In this document: one piece after another, positions 2,806 through 20,267 of the stretch
How the letters are laid out: each line of letters starts with the position of its first letter
Numbering within the stretch: the first letter of the stretch is position 1
DNA from: a virus
Direction: 5' to 3' (one strand)
Length of the DNA: 29,267 nucleotides
IMG/VR virus record: IMGVR_UViG_3300021961_000445
Location: 1 to 29,267 of that record
The notes under the pieces: generated by a model
Database searches by the model: none
What the model was told of the DNA's origin: nothing
What the model saw: the letters and a program-made list of their open reading frames with translations, nothing else
Translations under genes and position numbers: made by a program

Positions 2806-2974
2806 CAAGCGGAATGATCCTATAACATTTAGTAACCTTACACCAGTGATCATTGTTCCAGTAATATTTAGGATAGACAACATATAAGTATATACCGTTT
2901 ATCTGCCTACTGAAGGCAATCCGTACTCCGGAACAAAGGTAAGCCAATAAAGATACTACAATAATCTCAAACAT
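2783..2974 (-). CDS. Small hypothetical protein with hydrophobic N-terminus
   Basis: 63 aa starting MFEIIVVSLLAYLCSGVRIAF, a hydrophobic stretch of about 13-15 residues that could be a membrane anchor or a buried strand-helix. An aromatic segment (YLYVVYPKYYWNNDHW) and two Cys follow. Start and stop overlap both neighbours by 8 and 23 nt, consistent with the packed operon. No family recognised. It could alternatively be a small beta protein rather than a membrane protein. Confidence 0.5.
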   Translation of the reverse strand: MFEIIVVSLLAYLCSGVRIAFSRQINGIYLYVVYPKYYWNNDHWCKVTKCYRIIPLDGGEPPY

Positions 2975-3131
2975 AACCTAGGTTTTTATAAATTAAATAT
3001 CTGTCCATCATCTCGATACGAATATCTTTACTCAACTTGTTCTTTTTCAACATCTTACTGTGTTGTTTGACAAGCTTCTTGTTCAGATTTGATGAGGGCT
3101 TGGTACTTTTTGATGCAGTCTTCCGTGCCAT
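2967..3131 (-). CDS. Small basic hypothetical protein
   Basis: 54 aa from the ATG at 3131 (MARKTASKSTKPSSN...); an in-frame ATG also lies at 3149. Lys-rich and Ser-rich for the first 40 residues, then a short amphipathic helix. The stop overlaps the next start by 8 nt, which supports the reading frame. The first 77 nt lie inside the 3' end of the SF2 helicase gene in another frame. A third ATG at 3053, immediately after the helicase stop, would give only 28 aa. Probably nucleic-acid binding by charge; no family known. Confidence 0.45.
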   Translation of the reverse strand: MARKTASKSTKPSSNLNKKLVKQHSKMLKKNKLSKDIRIEMMDRYLIYKNLGYV

Positions 3132-4284
3132 TGCAATAGATTTCTTCATAGTTAGTGATGTTTTCCATGGCCTTCTTGTACCACTTCGCTTCCTGGGTAC
3201 CCAAGGTCATGTAGATGAATACATTACCTGTCTGGTCACTCACCCTCTGACGTCCTATCGCCTGGATCATGTCAAGCTCCTTGCTGTAATAAGACATTAG
3301 AATAGTGTTGTCCAGATCCTTCAGGTTCGCACCCTGTTTGAGCATCTTGAATGAACCGACTGTGTTTATCACACCATTGTCAAAGTCCTCACGGATCTTC
3401 TGATTCTGTTTGTCAGTTTTCTTGTTGCTTATCACATTGGGTGTTACCTGTGTCAATGCGTCAATGCTGTTTCCAAACACGAGTGTCTTGCCTTCCAGGA
3501 CCTTCAACAATTCCTGTACGGCGGTTATCTTGCTTGGTAGGTTATACAACACCTTCGCACGTCCCGCGGATGTCATCCTTATGCGGAACAGTTTCTTCTG
3601 TCCTTCAGGCAGGAACAATGTCTTTCTGAATTCAGAATCCCAGTAATCATAGGAAGCCTTCTCTGTCGTCATGAAGGGATTCGCCTTTGTGCCTGCGGGG
3701 ACATTCTTGTGCACATCATCAAGCTGATGATAGATTATGAACATCCGCAGTTTCTTGGCAGTCCCGTCACTCACAGCCTCATTCAAGGTGTATTTGAAAC
3801 AGACAGGTGCGATGGAATCAACCATCATCCCCTTGTCCACTTCCTGTTCGTCAACCACGTAGGTGGTTCCACGGTCTATCGTTGCTGACAGACCGAGGAG
3901 CGCACCATACTGGTTTTGATTGTAAAACATTCCATATACAGGAGTAAGTGAGCTGTGTATCTCGTCAGCACATACCAGATCCCATTGGGTGTTCTGCCAC
4001 TTGCATGCGGATTGATAACAGCTGAACGTCAGGCTATGTTCCTGCAGAAGATTCCAGCTATAGACCTTCTCAAAGAACTGTATGTCCTTCATCAAGTCAA
4101 ATTCACGTTGGGTTGTCTCTGCAAGGAACAATACCTTGGAGCCTTTCGGCAGAAGCCGACAAGCCTTGAGAAAACAGAAAGTCTTCCCAATACCAGTACT
4201 GAGGTTAACAGTACCTTTCTTGCCGGCCTCCACCCAGGCTTCCACCGCTTTATCTTGTATTTCAGCCCTTTTGGCGTCTAACAT
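3055..4284 (-). CDS. Superfamily 2 DEAD/DEAH-type helicase
   Basis: 409 aa. The SF2 motifs appear in order: motif I STGIGKT (29-35), motif Ia region VLFLAETTQ (51-59), motif II DEIH (107-110), motif III LSAT (132-135), motif V region SFKMLKQGANL (311-321) and motif VI QAIGRQR (341-347). The short N-terminus and absence of an extra C-terminal domain make it a minimal UvsW/RecG-like or ResIII-type phage helicase. It would use ATP hydrolysis to translocate on or remodel branched DNA during replication or repair. It lies between the rIIB gene and the DnaB-like gene in the replication operon. The 10 nt between the rIIB stop and its ATG imply co-translation. The family is secure; the substrate is unknown. 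Confidence 0.88.
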   Translation of the reverse strand: MLDAKRAEIQDKAVEAWVEAGKKGTVNLSTGIGKTFCFLKACRLLPKGSKVLFLAETTQREFDLMKDIQFFEKVYSWNLLQEHSLTFSCYQSACKWQNTQWDLVCADEIHSSLTPVYGMFYNQNQYGALLGLSATIDRGTTYVVDEQEVDKGMMVDSIAPVCFKYTLNEAVSDGTAKKLRMFIIYHQLDDVHKNVPAGTKANPFMTTEKASYDYWDSEFRKTLFLPEGQKKLFRIRMTSAGRAKVLYNLPSKITAVQELLKVLEGKTLVFGNSIDALTQVTPNVISNKKTDKQNQKIREDFDNGVINTVGSFKMLKQGANLKDLDNTILMSYYSKELDMIQAIGRQRVSDQTGNVFIYMTLGTQEAKWYKKAMENITNYEEIYCNGTEDCIKKYQALIKSEQEACQTTQ

Positions 4285-4293
4285 AAGTTAAGG

Positions 4294-5616
4294 TTAAAAT
4301 GAGTGTTCTTCACAATGGTTTCCATCGGCACAATCATCACAGTAATCATCATCCTCATCACCGTGATAATCGTTGTAATCAGCTTCCTCCTGCTCCCAAA
4401 TGAAGTTCAGACGGTTTTTCACGACTGACTCGGCATTGGCAAGATTATGGAAGATTGAACTGAATGCTGCGGAACTTGACACGCCAAGGATGTGATTCAC
4501 ATTCAATTCATAGACAGAACTGCCTGCAACCATCTCCTTCAACATCACAACCTGATCAGCGAAGTGATCAAGAAGAATGTCAGAACCATCAAAGTCGGAG
4601 GACTCCAACAATGAGTTCTCATCATTGTCATCAAGCACTGCGATTGGAGTGAATGCAGAGGTACGCAACTTGCCATCCTCACCTTGAGGAACTGCAAGCA
4701 CATCCATTGGATTCACAACTACGAGGATCGGTGTATCGCCGAAGCCTGAGTAATCATAGGCTTTACTTGCCACATGCAATCCGCGTGAGCAACTCACCTG
4801 ATTGGATTGATTACCTTCGTGACGCTCAATGCGAGCCTCCACACCAATGCGATAATCCATGCTACGGGTGTGATTGTCGGTGAATTGTTGTTCCTGGTTG
4901 GACAACTCCTCATACAACTTGTCAAGCTTACCCACGGCATCACCGTCAAGGACAGGAGCTATGTGATACTGCCCATTCTTGGATATCACATAATAGTTCG
5001 CAGGATCCATGCGCCAGATGGTCTTCACCTTCACATAGGAATTTGATACAAACTCTATCAAGTCTTTAGCAGCTGTGCGGTTCAAGGATACGACACGACG
5101 ATAGGCGAGGAACATGCCCTGCGAAGTGATAGGCATGCCATGATGCTTCAAGAAGCGGAACAAATCCTCACGACTCGCGGGATTGGGATTCAACGCGCAC
5201 CACATCCAGAAGTTGTCAAGGGACTTGAACGCCTTGAAACCCTCAAGACCTTCAAAAGCAAAGTCTTGTTTCTTGAATGCATTGTACGCCTGTACATATT
5301 CAATGGCAAGATCCTCAGGAATGCTCAGCTCTATGCCTGTGCGGTAAAGGGCTGTGCCATTCACTTTGAATAGACTTGGATACTCGGATGCAAGGTCATT
5401 GATGGTAGCTACCATTTCCTTCTTGGCGGCGAAACGTGCCTCTTCATTACTCAATTCAGGGACAAGAAGCCTCTTGATGCTTTCAATGTCGCCTTGCTCA
5501 TACAAGGAATGAACCCTTTGAAAGAGTTCATCCGTGCAGTTGTTTGTCGTGATGATCGAACCATCATCAGTCATTACGGTAAGATTATTACCGATTTTCA
5601 GAAGTTTCATCTTCAT
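4294..5616 (-). CDS. rIIB: rIIB-like protein
   Basis: 440 aa. The rIIB signature is visible as CSRGLHVAS at 276-284, followed by GFGDTPILVVVNPMDVLAVP (291-310), the conserved GLHV...NPxDVxxVP pattern. A second family hallmark, FLKHHGMPITSQGMFLAYR, lies at 155-173. T4 rIIB is 312 aa; this one is longer, with an extended N-terminus and a C-terminal tail that is strongly acidic and Cys/His rich (about residues 415-440). It sits two genes downstream of rIIA on the same strand. In T4 the two act together at the membrane to regulate lysis and exclude other phages; the same partnership is inferred here. Two in-frame ATGs, 5616 and 5610, are equally possible starts. Confidence 0.85.
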   Translation of the reverse strand: MKMKLLKIGNNLTVMTDDGSIITTNNCTDELFQRVHSLYEQGDIESIKRLLVPELSNEEARFAAKKEMVATINDLASEYPSLFKVNGTALYRTGIELSIPEDLAIEYVQAYNAFKKQDFAFEGLEGFKAFKSLDNFWMWCALNPNPASREDLFRFLKHHGMPITSQGMFLAYRRVVSLNRTAAKDLIEFVSNSYVKVKTIWRMDPANYYVISKNGQYHIAPVLDGDAVGKLDKLYEELSNQEQQFTDNHTRSMDYRIGVEARIERHEGNQSNQVSCSRGLHVASKAYDYSGFGDTPILVVVNPMDVLAVPQGEDGKLRTSAFTPIAVLDDNDENSLLESSDFDGSDILLDHFADQVVMLKEMVAGSSVYELNVNHILGVSSSAAFSSIFHNLANAESVVKNRLNFIWEQEEADYNDYHGDEDDDYCDDCADGNHCEEHSF

Positions 5617-14471: not shown

Positions 14472-15350
14472 TTAGAATATGTAACGTATTGTGTTCCAAG
14501 GTATGATTTGATCGTGTAATTCAATGAATTGTTCTATGAATTGACGCTTCAGATTGTGCTCATACCTTATGTTCTTACCTCCGTATTGCGAGGTTTTCTC
14601 TTCCTGCATATGAGGTTGCCATAACAGGTCTTCACCTGAAAGTCTGTTTACGACATTATAATGATGCTTGTTCTCATTATGTGTCAAGAAGATGACTTCC
14701 GCTTTGACTTGATCATTGTAATAGGCATCTCCGACATAATGATTTACAAGAGTGAACAAGTCACGATACTTGTCAAGCCAGCCTGGATATACAATTACAG
14801 GACTGAAATTCAGATGTACTTCATAACCAGCTTCATGGAAGGATTCTATTGCTTCAAGACGTTCCTCTATGGTGCTTGTGTTAGGTTCAAGCAATGTGGA
14901 ATAATCCTGTGGCATCAAACTGAAGCGTATCCTGATCTTGTTTTCATAATTCTCATTTTCGGCTTTATAATCAAGAAGATCTTTGTTTACGTACTTTGTT
15001 GCAAATGAAGCCATTGCAGTAGGATGATCTTTGAAGAAATCAAATATCCTGCGCCAATCGTGATGTTTGGCGTGCAATGCGAAGTCCTCGTTACAGGAGA
15101 TGTCGTATGTAATGAATTGCTCGTGTGTCTGATTGGGCTTCTGCACATCAGCCAACCATGAATGGATGTTTATGGCATTCAGTATGTCAACTGTGTTCTT
15201 TGCAACGTCAAGTCCTTCAGGTTTATGACGTTTCATGTAGCAATATGTACAGTTATACAGACAACCATATCCAAAGCTTGGACTTATAAAGTCTGTTGAT
15301 CTGCCTGATTCCCTGATCAAGAGGGATTTACGTTTTACTTCTTCTAACAT
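14472..15350 (-). CDS. Spore photoproduct lyase-like radical SAM protein
   Basis: 292 aa. The radical SAM cluster motif CLYNCTYC gives C30-x3-C34-x2-C37, set in SPSFGYGC...YCYMKRH, the form typical of spore photoproduct lyases (SplB family). Tyr38 follows the third Cys as in SPL. A second SPL-like element, YDISCNEDFAL (82-92), puts Cys86 where SPL has its hydrogen-donating cysteine. The middle holds the TIM-barrel strands (IRIRFSLMPQ, EVHLNFSPVIV). SPL reverses the 5-thyminyl-5,6-dihydrothymine dimer by S-adenosylmethionine radical chemistry; the phage enzyme may repair DNA or act on another substrate. It is slightly shorter than Bacillus SplB (about 340 aa). It overlaps the 35-aa membrane gene by 7 nt. 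Confidence 0.75.
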   Translation of the reverse strand: MLEEVKRKSLLIRESGRSTDFISPSFGYGCLYNCTYCYMKRHKPEGLDVAKNTVDILNAINIHSWLADVQKPNQTHEQFITYDISCNEDFALHAKHHDWRRIFDFFKDHPTAMASFATKYVNKDLLDYKAENENYENKIRIRFSLMPQDYSTLLEPNTSTIEERLEAIESFHEAGYEVHLNFSPVIVYPGWLDKYRDLFTLVNHYVGDAYYNDQVKAEVIFLTHNENKHHYNVVNRLSGEDLLWQPHMQEEKTSQYGGKNIRYEHNLKRQFIEQFIELHDQIIPWNTIRYIF

Positions 15351-18657: not shown

Positions 18658-18861
18658 TTATTCATTAGCAAATTGCGGTGGAGATCCGAAATGATCAATA
18701 TGAACCGCTACATAGCACTCCTTCTGATTTGCAAAGAACTTTACATTTCTCGGCAAATCATCCTCAGAACACTCAAGTGTTCCGTGAATAGGTGCTGATC
18801 CAGCATAAGGTACATAATAGAATCCCACAAGTTCACGGTCAATGACATAGAAATGTTCCAT
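18658..18861 (-). CDS. Hypothetical protein (67 aa)
   Basis: MEHFYVIDRELVGFYYVPYA, then a polar middle and a C-terminal beta strand CYVAVHIDHFG. Compact beta-rich protein; no motif recognised. It follows the structured non-coding region and the leader motif at 18875-18886, so it may be translated from a transcript carrying that RNA as its 5' leader. Confidence 0.6.
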   Translation of the reverse strand: MEHFYVIDRELVGFYYVPYAGSAPIHGTLECSEDDLPRNVKFFANQKECYVAVHIDHFGSPPQFANE

Positions 18862-18874
18862 TTTCCAGTATATG

Positions 18875-18886
18875 TTTAAGGGTTAG
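18875..18886 (-). promoter_or_regulatory. Recurrent leader motif (CTAACCCTTAAA)
   Basis: On the minus strand CTAACCCTTAAA stands 14 nt upstream of the ATG at 18861. Near copies precede other minus-strand starts: 16355-16366 (exact, before 16344), 18634-18646 (one extra T, before 18622), 14464-14475 (CTAACCATTAAA, before 14453), 17951-17964 (ATAACCTTAAAAA, before 17940) and, weaker, before 5616 and 4284. It could be a translation enhancer replacing the Shine-Dalgarno sequence, or part of a phage promoter. In two cases it includes the upstream gene's stop codon. Confidence 0.45.
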
Positions 18887-18900
18887 AGTCAAATGAAAAT

Positions 18901-19034
18901 GCACTTAGTTGTGATACGAGGAGCTTTTGTGGAACAGGTCAAGCTTTAGCTTATCTCGCCTGTTTGATCCACCATTTTAATCGGCAGGACTCCAATTCTG
19001 CTTTCGAGTTTTATTTGTATCACAACTGAAGTGC
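18901..19034. repeat. Tandem inverted-repeat unit 1
   Basis: GCACTTAGTTGTGATAC (18901-18917) pairs with GTATCACAACTGAAGTGC (19017-19034): 17 bp with one bulged G. Inside are GTGGA/TCCAC plus ACAGG/CCTGT (18929-18938 with 18959-18972) capped by AAGC/GCTT with a tetraloop, and GCAG/CTGC (18984 and 18998). GGGTTA (18880) may extend the stem by pairing with TAACCC (19040). Confidence 0.75.
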
Positions 19035-19049
19035 ATTATTAACCCCTCT

Positions 19050-19194
19050 GCACTCAGTTGTAATACTGTTGTTTTTGTTTATTTGTATGCCTACAAATCT
19101 CCTGTCAACAAGTATTATTTCTAATACAAAACTGCCCGTTAGGCAGAAATTATTAGTATTACAACTGCTCACCCTTGGGAAGTGAGAATAGTGC
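19050..19194. repeat. Tandem inverted-repeat unit 2
   Basis: GCACTCAGTTGTAATAC (19050-19066), 15 of 17 bases identical to the arm of unit 1. AGTTGTAATAC pairs with GTATTACAACT (19156-19166), and GCACT with AGTGC (19190-19194), with an extra CTCAC/GTGAG hairpin where unit 1 has a bulge. Inside: TGTTG/CAACA enclosing ATTTGTA/TACAAAT, then GTATTA/TAATAC, then CTGCC/GGCAG, a multibranched fold. Confidence 0.75.
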
Positions 19195-19566
19195 ATTGGG
19201 TTACTAATGCCTCTTAGCATCATCAGAAGGTTGTTTTTACATTACGCACCATGACCTACAAGCGGTGCAACCTTTTCCAAGGAAGTTAGAGTGTGTTTCA
19301 TATGACAGTCTTAATTTATTACACGCAAGTCACTAGCGTGGAATCAACAACCTACCTAGTATAGGATTACCTGTATATCAGTACAAGTTTTACCTGTGAG
19401 GTTATAACTAGGATGTCTAGAGATTAAAGGCAGGCTGACATATAACCTGTTGTTCCCTATGTGTTTACCAATATGTCTAGTGTGGCCATAGAGTCAAACG
19501 AACTCTATACATCCCTATCTGCAGATAGTTACCCCCTGTACCACTTGGGTTTGTTGGCTTATCATA

Positions 19567-19803
19567 CTATAAATCATCAAGCTGATGTGTATATTTACGG
19601 AAATTGTACCGGTCCTTAACAAACCAGTGATCCCTATCAAAAGATAACTCCTCTCGAATTTGACATTCCACACACTCAGGATACGGAGTACACGAGGGAT
19701 GGCATATGAAATGATCCACAACCTTGAACTCCTTACACGTACAACACTTGTAGGTAGTCACCACTACAGGCAACTCAATCCTACCAATTACTTTTACACT
19801 CAT
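19567..19803 (-). CDS. Small zinc-finger protein (78 aa)
   Basis: Cys-rich core from residue 19: CCTC, then C34, C38, and ECVEC (about 44-48), i.e. two CxxC pairs with two additional Cys between them. The flanks are a beta-like N-terminus MSVKVIGRIELPVVVTTY and an aromatic helical tail. The arrangement resembles the zinc knuckle part of HNH or treble-clef proteins, without the HNH catalytic motif. It lies directly ahead of the structured non-coding region, so it might bind that nucleic acid; this is speculation. Confidence 0.65.
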   Translation of the reverse strand: MSVKVIGRIELPVVVTTYKCCTCKEFKVVDHFICHPSCTPYPECVECQIREELSFDRDHWFVKDRYNFRKYTHQLDDL

Positions 19804-19910
19804 CTTGTTTAGTTTTTTAAACTGTTATACACAGGCACTTTTGCTAGATATGCTATATAATAGAAACAGCAGATAATAAGCTGGTTATATACATAGTATC
19901 AAAAGAGAAA

Positions 19911-19928
19911 GAGAGACTATTGTCTCTC
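19911..19928 (-). terminator. Rho-independent terminator
   Basis: GAGAGAC, loop of 4, GTCTCTC: a 7-bp stem followed on the minus strand by TTTCTCTTTT. It lies 12 nt past the stop of the 108-aa gene and would end its transcript. Confidence 0.7.
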
Positions 19929-19940
19929 CTTCTCACTGGC

Positions 19941-20267
19941 TTAAGAATTAAGCCATAGCAATTGCTTACCGTCAGGAAGCTTCTGCGCACCGAAAGTTAC
20001 GTCAGTAAGTTTCAAGTCCTTCAACAGTTCTTTCGTAAAGAACTTGAAGACTTGATTCTTACCTGTGCTATCTTTGATAGCCATGGCGTAAGAATAGGAG
20101 CCCTTCGCAGATGGGCCTCCAATAAGGCGGGCAGTTCCAGTTACTGGAGCTGACTTGCCTGACACCTCGAGTGAATCTTGAAGTTCAATATTAACTTCAT
20201 TCACGACGAGCATTGAGTCCAAGGCCTGCTCTAGGTCTTGGAAGAGATTTGATTTTGGCTTAGCCAT
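19941..20267 (-). CDS. Hypothetical protein (108 aa)
   Basis: A helical N-terminus (FQDLEQALDSMLVVNEV) is followed by a beta-rich domain with alternating hydrophobics: VTGTARLIGGPSAKGSYSYA and QVFKFFTKELLKDLKL, then a final strand KQLLWLNS. First minus-strand gene at the divergent region and closed by its own terminator, so it is a single-gene unit that is probably transcribed strongly and early. No family recognised. Possibly a small nucleic-acid-binding or regulatory protein, by position only. Confidence 0.7.
   Translation of the reverse strand: MAKPKSNLFQDLEQALDSMLVVNEVNIELQDSLEVSGKSAPVTGTARLIGGPSAKGSYSYAMAIKDSTGKNQVFKFFTKELLKDLKLTDVTFGAQKLPDGKQLLWLNS

Follow-up and report, generated by a model that had tools for sequence, protein, structure and literature searches.

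What might be produced from a block of about 680 nucleotides (nt) that holds no gene and is packed with helices is the question raised by the IMG/VR virus record IMGVR_UViG_3300021961_000445, whose 29,267 bases constitute the window analyzed here (block at 18880-19560, positions being those of the window). On sequence comparison and covariation, the block consists of separable modules, H1, H2, C and D, that follow one another without gaps and make up four or five small folded RNAs, not one large RNA. They are predicted to lie end-to-end, as minus-strand RNA, in the space separating two early genes. The favored explanation, to which a probability of about 0.6 is assigned, is that at least four small structured RNAs stand in a row within an early operon, are probably processed and stable like phage tRNAs, and would act in trans.

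The window itself is assigned to an environmental phage of the Crassvirales on account of two proteins. Its TerL is closest, among isolates, to that of Cellulophaga phage phi14:2 (33% identity over the whole protein), the next-best matches being cr115_1 and other crAss-like phages, and crAss-like phages are also among the top matches of its DNA polymerase. The host is presumably a member of the Bacteroidota.

Helix content and coding status of the block

The original prediction had described a gene-free stretch crowded with stem-loops, flanked by minus-strand genes in a phage, and each of these points was borne out. The helices that it quoted are present: AAGGTT (19227-19232)/AACCTT (19269-19274) encloses GCACC (19246-19250)/GGTGC (19264-19268), and CCTAGT (19355-19360) pairs with ACTAGG (19407-19412). 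Perfectly paired stems 7 bp or longer number 12 in the block, compared with 4.0 ± 1.9 in 60 dinucleotide shuffles, none of which reached 12, and this number exceeds that of every other 681-nt tile of the window. Folding of 18870-19566 as RNA gave z scores of -4.4 for the minus strand and -4.8 for the plus strand, with none of 20 shuffles equal.

The strict limits free of open reading frames (ORFs) are about 18862-19566, and the ORFs that cross the block mechanically are short, one of 67 aa (19020-19223, minus strand) and one of 52 aa (19461-19619, plus strand), with nothing longer. Relatives disrupt these frames, as the interiors of H2 are wholly different and variable in length and the alignment of C has indels of 1 and 2 nt. 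A protein-coding block was therefore rejected, since none of its frames survives in relatives, in line with what had been predicted.

The statement that no motif of GOLLD or ROOL was recognized also held: Rfam, with GOLLD, ROOL, OLE and HEARO among its models, gave no match to the block at the gathering score when run against the window, and none up to E = 10 against 18860-19940, while in 12 relatives it returned tRNAs only. ARAGORN and the Rfam models RF00005 and RF00023 found no tRNA or tmRNA in the block, and H2, C and D are neither. A BLAST search of cultured phages gave no match to the block or to the H2 3' motif.

Modules that separate and reorder

The modules appear to be separate units of roughly 60-220 nt each, because H1, H2, C and D are each found without the others and in differing orders in other phages. 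Their positions in the window are as follows.

18898-19038, minus strand: H1, a long hairpin with a 9-bp outer stem AAUGCACUU/AAGUGCAUU, then CAGUUGUGAUAC/GUAUCACAAC, and a structured interior
19043-19199, minus strand: H2, a compact pseudoknotted three-way junction with a hypervariable P2 hairpin
about 19200-19421, minus strand: C, with two domains, C-a and C-b
about 19422-19562, minus strand: D, with a GUGGU/GGCCAC domain, a CUAUC/GAUAG hairpin and an AGGUU/AGCCU hairpin

In an 87-kb relative, IMGVR_UViG_3300005805_000001, whose neighboring genes are 79-94% identical to the window at the DNA level, the block keeps stretches of 377 nt (93%) and 141 nt (94%) in changed order, the intervening part being missing. 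The 377-nt stretch is split further elsewhere: C occurs alone in L060 (93%), L080 (73%) and L132; L116 and L076 have C-a but not C-b; L125 has a diverged C-b but not C-a; and L028 has D but not C. Read on the plus strand, C comes before H2 in L060 and after it in the window and in L080. H1, a P1-P2 hairpin without P3, is 97.7% identical in L028 and 94% identical in L012, where it has a different place relative to C and D, on the opposite side of D compared with the window. Its outer stem shows a compensatory change (GTGATAC/GTATCAC to GTAATAC/GTATTAC), and five H1-type copies lie within 1.5 kb of the 87-kb relative.

Contigs that share modules mostly do so without the genes flanking the block of the window. 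The gaps that hold the arrays are ORF-free with a median of 788 nt. In 79 of 83 cases the first ORF downstream is encoded on the same strand as the RNA, and that strand also carries the tRNA genes near H2 in those contigs that were read.

The H2 family

H2 is, on covariation, the best-defined family of the block, and it matches no Rfam family. Its layout, written as minus-strand RNA, is AAUG-P1(UGCAC)-CA-N2-3-P3(5 bp, loop UUCCCAAGG)-P2(CAGUU...AACUG)-A-P1'(GUGCA)-GA-GGG. The copy in the window (19043-19199) has P1, P2, P3, the loop UUCCCAAGG, the tail GAGGG and the pseudoknot, the features that define the family, placed as listed below.

19191-19195, minus strand: 5' strand of P1, UGCAC, pairing with 19049-19053
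19168-19186, minus strand: P3, CUCAC-UUCCCAAGG-GUGAG, a 5-bp stem with an invariant 9-nt loop
19055-19167, minus strand: P2 hairpin, exchangeable and hypervariable, with arms CAGUUGUAAUAC/GUAUUACAACUG
19044-19053, minus strand: 3' end, consisting of P1' (GUGCA, 19049-19053) and the tail GAGGG, whose GGG (19044-19046) pairs with CCC of the P3 loop (19175-19177)

The pairing of P1 is kept across relatives through different sequences (UGCAC/GUGCA, UGUAC/GUACA, UGCGU/ACGCA and UGCAU/AUGCA). Of 139 occurrences of the loop UUCCCAAGG, 137 are closed by a perfect stem that is exactly 5 bp long, and seven different stem sequences are represented. A second scan left the P3 stem free, which largely lifted the bias toward a single stem sequence; here the perfect 5-bp stem was found at 53 of 59 loci, giving about 18 stem sequences overall. 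Paralogues within one contig differ in their P3 stems. As a positive control, the same unsupervised scan for loops on stems also picked up the T-arms of tRNAs.

The pseudoknot is compensated as well. The variant loop TTCACAAGG occurs with the tail GAGTG in three of three copies and the loop TTCCCAAGG with GAGGG in nearly all others, so that a C-G pair becomes A-U in all three variant loops; CCC/GGG is invariant within an alignment of 25 diverse copies. In that alignment 97.2% of the cells are paired, compared with 80.2% after shuffling, double changes occur in 17 of 23 pairs, and controls with slid pairing collapse. Because a copy was admitted to this alignment only if at least four of its five P3 pairs formed, support for P3 is to be taken from the loop-stem counts. 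Sequestration of a Shine-Dalgarno sequence by the GGG tail was considered and rejected, as the start codon is too far away (about 21-57 nt) in the copies read.

The 3' motif of H2 is present in at least 119 IMG/VR contigs, and the conserved 5' partner CTCTGCACTCAGTT lies shortly upstream of it in 117 of the 121 matches listed, with the hypervariable interior in between. Motif scans and a frame search together give at least 185 copies in at least 170 contigs, some of which are near-duplicates. The core is conserved among phages whose terminases are 25-36% identical to that of the window. A search of the cultured-phage collection for the 3' motif found none, and the genome collection gave a single match, L152 (RFNS01000086.1, from a metagenome-assembled genome labeled Alphaproteobacteria), which is probably a phage contig binned with that genome. 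The first 50 kb of phi14:2 contain no match to H2 or C, and the part of its gene-free block at 2905-3700 folds no better than shuffles (z -0.5).

Among 16 contigs of 58-117 kb, 15 contain the main H2 type once and with zero mismatches, although three were permitted. A simple multi-copy mobile element was rejected on this single copy in all 15 long contigs that have it.

Exchange of the P2 hairpin and the RNA strand

Within the conserved core, 122 distinct P2 domains (less than 80% alike) were collected with their arms paired, and in these the ratio of G-U to A-C on the minus strand is 18:1 (p = 8e-5). The wobbles in P3 are few, and every one is U-G on the minus strand. From this asymmetry the RNA is assigned to the minus strand, the same as the flanking genes, which agrees with the orientation that had been suggested from the letters of the window.

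At its extremes, P2 is shortened to CAGUUAUCUG in L137 and has its arms fully replaced in L052. An interior of about 105 nt is shared, at 89% identity, by an H2 frame (L096) and a second, V5, frame (L054 and L110). Comparison of these copies thus shows the predicted hairpin domain to be exchanged both between phages and between different RNA frames. We know of no such shuffling of RNA domains from described families.

Modules C and D

Modules C and D also carry covarying helices, and the two domains of C are placed as follows.

19205-19290, minus strand: C-b, with the nested helices AAGGTT/AACCTT and GCACC/GGTGC
19294-19414, minus strand: C-a, with three helices (RNA strand), CCTAGT/ACTAGG, ACTTGTA/TACAGGT and CACGC/GCGTG

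Four pairs of C-b are altered on both sides (covariation score 0.381 compared with 0.211 after shuffling). In C-a five pairs are altered on both sides, none of 500 shuffles scored as high, and slid controls gave no double changes. The helices of D carry double changes above both shuffles and slid controls, and the loop AUAUGUC of its AGGUU/AGCCU hairpin (19437-19443) pairs with the upstream strand GACAUAU (19471-19477) as a pseudoknot, both helices of which are retained in a diverged copy in L125. With covariation above controls in H2, C and D, the claim that the block encodes structured RNA and not a gene was upheld.

Proposed function of the array

In the favored explanation, the RNAs of the array would be cotranscribed with the early operon, and the modules would fold independently, as their helices do in H2, C and D, and would probably be trimmed out as stable small RNAs, as phage tRNAs are. 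The predicted core of H2 consists of P1, of P3 with its loop CCC paired to the 3' tail GGG, and of a P2 helix that would serve as the socket for the hypervariable hairpin. The most likely role of this invariant core is to bind a single conserved partner, a protein or RNA of the phage or the host, while the swapped hairpin may give each copy its own identity or target. The conserved arms might be the sites of the recombination by which modules and P2 hairpins, whose swapping is seen in the contigs, pass from phage to phage, and the RNAs would act in trans during infection. Trans action is favored over the control of one gene because H2 has no conserved gene neighbor: the 109 downstream proteins fall into 68 clusters and the 106 upstream proteins into 71.

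Several points weigh against this explanation. The trans action and the binding of a partner are steps that we infer, the transcripts are predicted from sequence comparison, and the covariation in C and D comes from alignments of 5-9 sequences each. H2 is often found right before a gene (the 25th percentile of the distance to the next ORF is 46 nt), which would fit a leader element too. Around the block, neither a promoter nor a processing site was recognized in a search that covers promoters of Bacteroidota phages poorly: sigma-70-like sites were at the chance level (5 found, 4.6 expected), and no promoter of the TTTG/TAnnTTTG type was found near the block. Terminator-like sites number three, two of them inside modules.

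A bolder extension, which is offered tentatively, is that environmental crAss-like phages may possess a combinatorial RNA system, in which H2, V2, V5 and other frames would be sockets for exchangeable hypervariable specificity hairpins. These would be shuffled between phages while under diversifying selection, and the system would be directed in trans against hosts or competing phages.

The main rival, held to be unlikely though by no means negligible, is that the modules are cis-acting elements, either of general purpose, such as processing sites or exonuclease-resistant folds that stabilize the 5' end, or ligand-sensing leaders of the next gene. It stands as the main rival because H2 is often just before a start codon, frequently ending 30-60 nt ahead of one on the same strand; the flanking ORFs lie on the RNA strand, and riboswitches and ribozymes typically have compact pseudoknotted junctions with a variable helix at the periphery. 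The pseudoknot between loop and tail beside P1 could then block a 5'-3' nuclease or gate expression. This rival is weakened by the diversity of the downstream genes, by the succession of several differing modules, some distant from any start codon, and by the occurrence of the main H2 type once in the long contigs searched and not ahead of many genes.

Elements acting as DNA, i.e., mobile hairpins or recombination or replication sites comparable to miniature inverted-repeat elements or to the PeSLs (promoter early stem-loops) of phage T4, with arms recognized as DNA and the interior as a passenger, are improbable. The inverted arms, the exchanged interiors and the five H1-type copies in one genome would suit them, and H1 alone could still be such an element, but the 18:1 asymmetry, the compensated pseudoknot, the unvarying 5-bp length of P3 and an orientation that is constant relative to flanking genes are signatures of single-stranded RNA, and the main H2 type is single-copy. 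A replication origin or a recombination site had been named as alternatives in the original prediction too, but the wobble asymmetry is characteristic of RNA. Of two narrower candidates, an integron attC site was set aside by reading, because the arms GTTGTAA...TTACAAC have the order of RYYYAAC (5') and GTTRRRY (3') reversed and do not fit the consensus. Mimicry of a type II-C CRISPR repeat (ends GTTGTGA...TCACAAC) is disfavored by the variability of the interior and by copies in which other arms have taken the place of these. A single ornate RNA of about 680 nt that is frequently recombined is very improbable because the modules separate: they abut almost without spacing and the whole block folds well, but H1, H2, C-a, C-b and D are each found without the others, module order varies among L060, L080, L012 and the window, and the ornate RNAs of Rfam give no match.

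Comparison with known RNAs

The original prediction had likened the block to GOLLD and ROOL, which are large ornate phage RNAs in Rfam found near tRNA islands (PMC12286853). The RNA nature stood, whereas the single unit of 680 nt did not, since the modules occur apart and reordered. The likeness consists of elaborate phage RNAs with unassigned function, pseudoknots and, sometimes, nearby tRNA genes on the same strand; the difference is that the models are unmatched and that the units here are independent, of about 60-220 nt, with another fold and a swapped hairpin domain. GOLLD, ROOL, OLE and HEARO all require one conserved unit of several hundred nt, which the separable modules do not provide.

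The PeSLs of T4-type phages (Arbiol et al. 2010 and Comeau et al. 2014, as cited in PMC4503421) resemble the modules, as far as that citing account goes, in being intergenic stem-loops shuffled between phage genomes; by the same account they are promoter-terminator motifs, whereas a search that covers promoters of Bacteroidota phages poorly found no promoter in the block modules, which are compact pseudoknotted RNAs with covarying stems. Arrays of phage tRNAs and the tmRNA genes of crAss-like phages likewise consist of genes for small stable RNAs that lie in the early region on the same strand, but H2, C and D belong to neither kind.

Three-way-junction RNAs with pseudoknots between loop and tail include exonuclease-resistant RNAs and some riboswitches and ribozymes. 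H2 shares their general topology, one hairpin loop being paired to the tail beside P1, but its helix order and conserved nucleotides match no known class, and Rfam gives no match. More broadly, the predicted RNA families and their hairpin exchange fitted no known class, and no description of RNA arrays in crAss-like phages was found in the open-access papers searched. CrAss-like phages rank among the most abundant viruses known. If the interpretation is correct, their genomes specify several unnamed RNA families, of which one occurs in at least 170 contigs; the core motif of H2 is short and clear enough to search for, express and solve. If the RNAs of the block turn out to be a further group of stable small RNAs of phages, they would join a known kind.

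Further RNA families in the same phages

Two other predicted families share the design of H2, a conserved frame around a hypervariable interior. The V2 frame (TACTCTCATCCAAGCAGG...TTGCAACCTTGTGAGAGTA) has at least 42 copies in at least 39 contigs, and its outer stem changes in a compensatory manner (TCTCA/TGAGA to TCTTG/CAAGA). Its loci fall within L038-L147, e.g., L059:6791 and L041:886 (RNA-strand coordinates), with the 3' side AAGGGTTGCAACCTTGTGAGAGTA. The V5 frame (TTGAGGACACCAGTTTCTTTGA...TCAAAGTTTTAGGTGTAAAAC) has at least 18 copies in at least 18 contigs, one per contig (L011, L012, L054, L058, L162 and 13 more), with a variable interior and the closing stems TTTGA/TCAAA, TTTAA/TTAAA, TTTCA/TGAAA and TTTAC/GTAAA. 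The invariant loops TTCCTTTAACC and TAACCAATAAT occur on changing 5-bp stems at about ten loci each, and these hairpins are likely to be further RNA families.

Genes for tmRNA, or tmRNA-like genes, were seen in crAss-like phages at L071:887-1274 and in phi14:2 (L214) at 4031-4502. The latter reaches 46 bits, where the gathering score is 47, is unannotated in the record and sits in the gene-free block of that phage.

Surroundings of the block

The genes of the window are on the minus strand as far as about 19.9 kb, and from 20.4 kb onward they are on the plus strand; the block is flanked by two small genes.

18658-18861, minus strand: downstream of the block, 67 aa, function unassigned, no PHROG match
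19567-19803, minus strand: upstream of the block, 78 aa with several Cys, function unassigned

The 67-aa gene is 98.5% identical in L028, where it also adjoins H1, and no homologue of the 78-aa gene was found in the relatives carrying C and D. A strong hairpin resembling an intrinsic terminator lies at 19905-19934 (minus strand), after the gene at 19941-20267. Because of it, transcription across the block may begin between this hairpin and the gene at 19567-19803.

Farther away, at 14472-15350 on the minus strand, the window encodes a 292-aa protein with a radical-SAM-like motif (CTYCYMKRH), by appearance of the spore photoproduct lyase type. This protein, at 55-70% identity, adjoins the RNA arrays in many of these phages.
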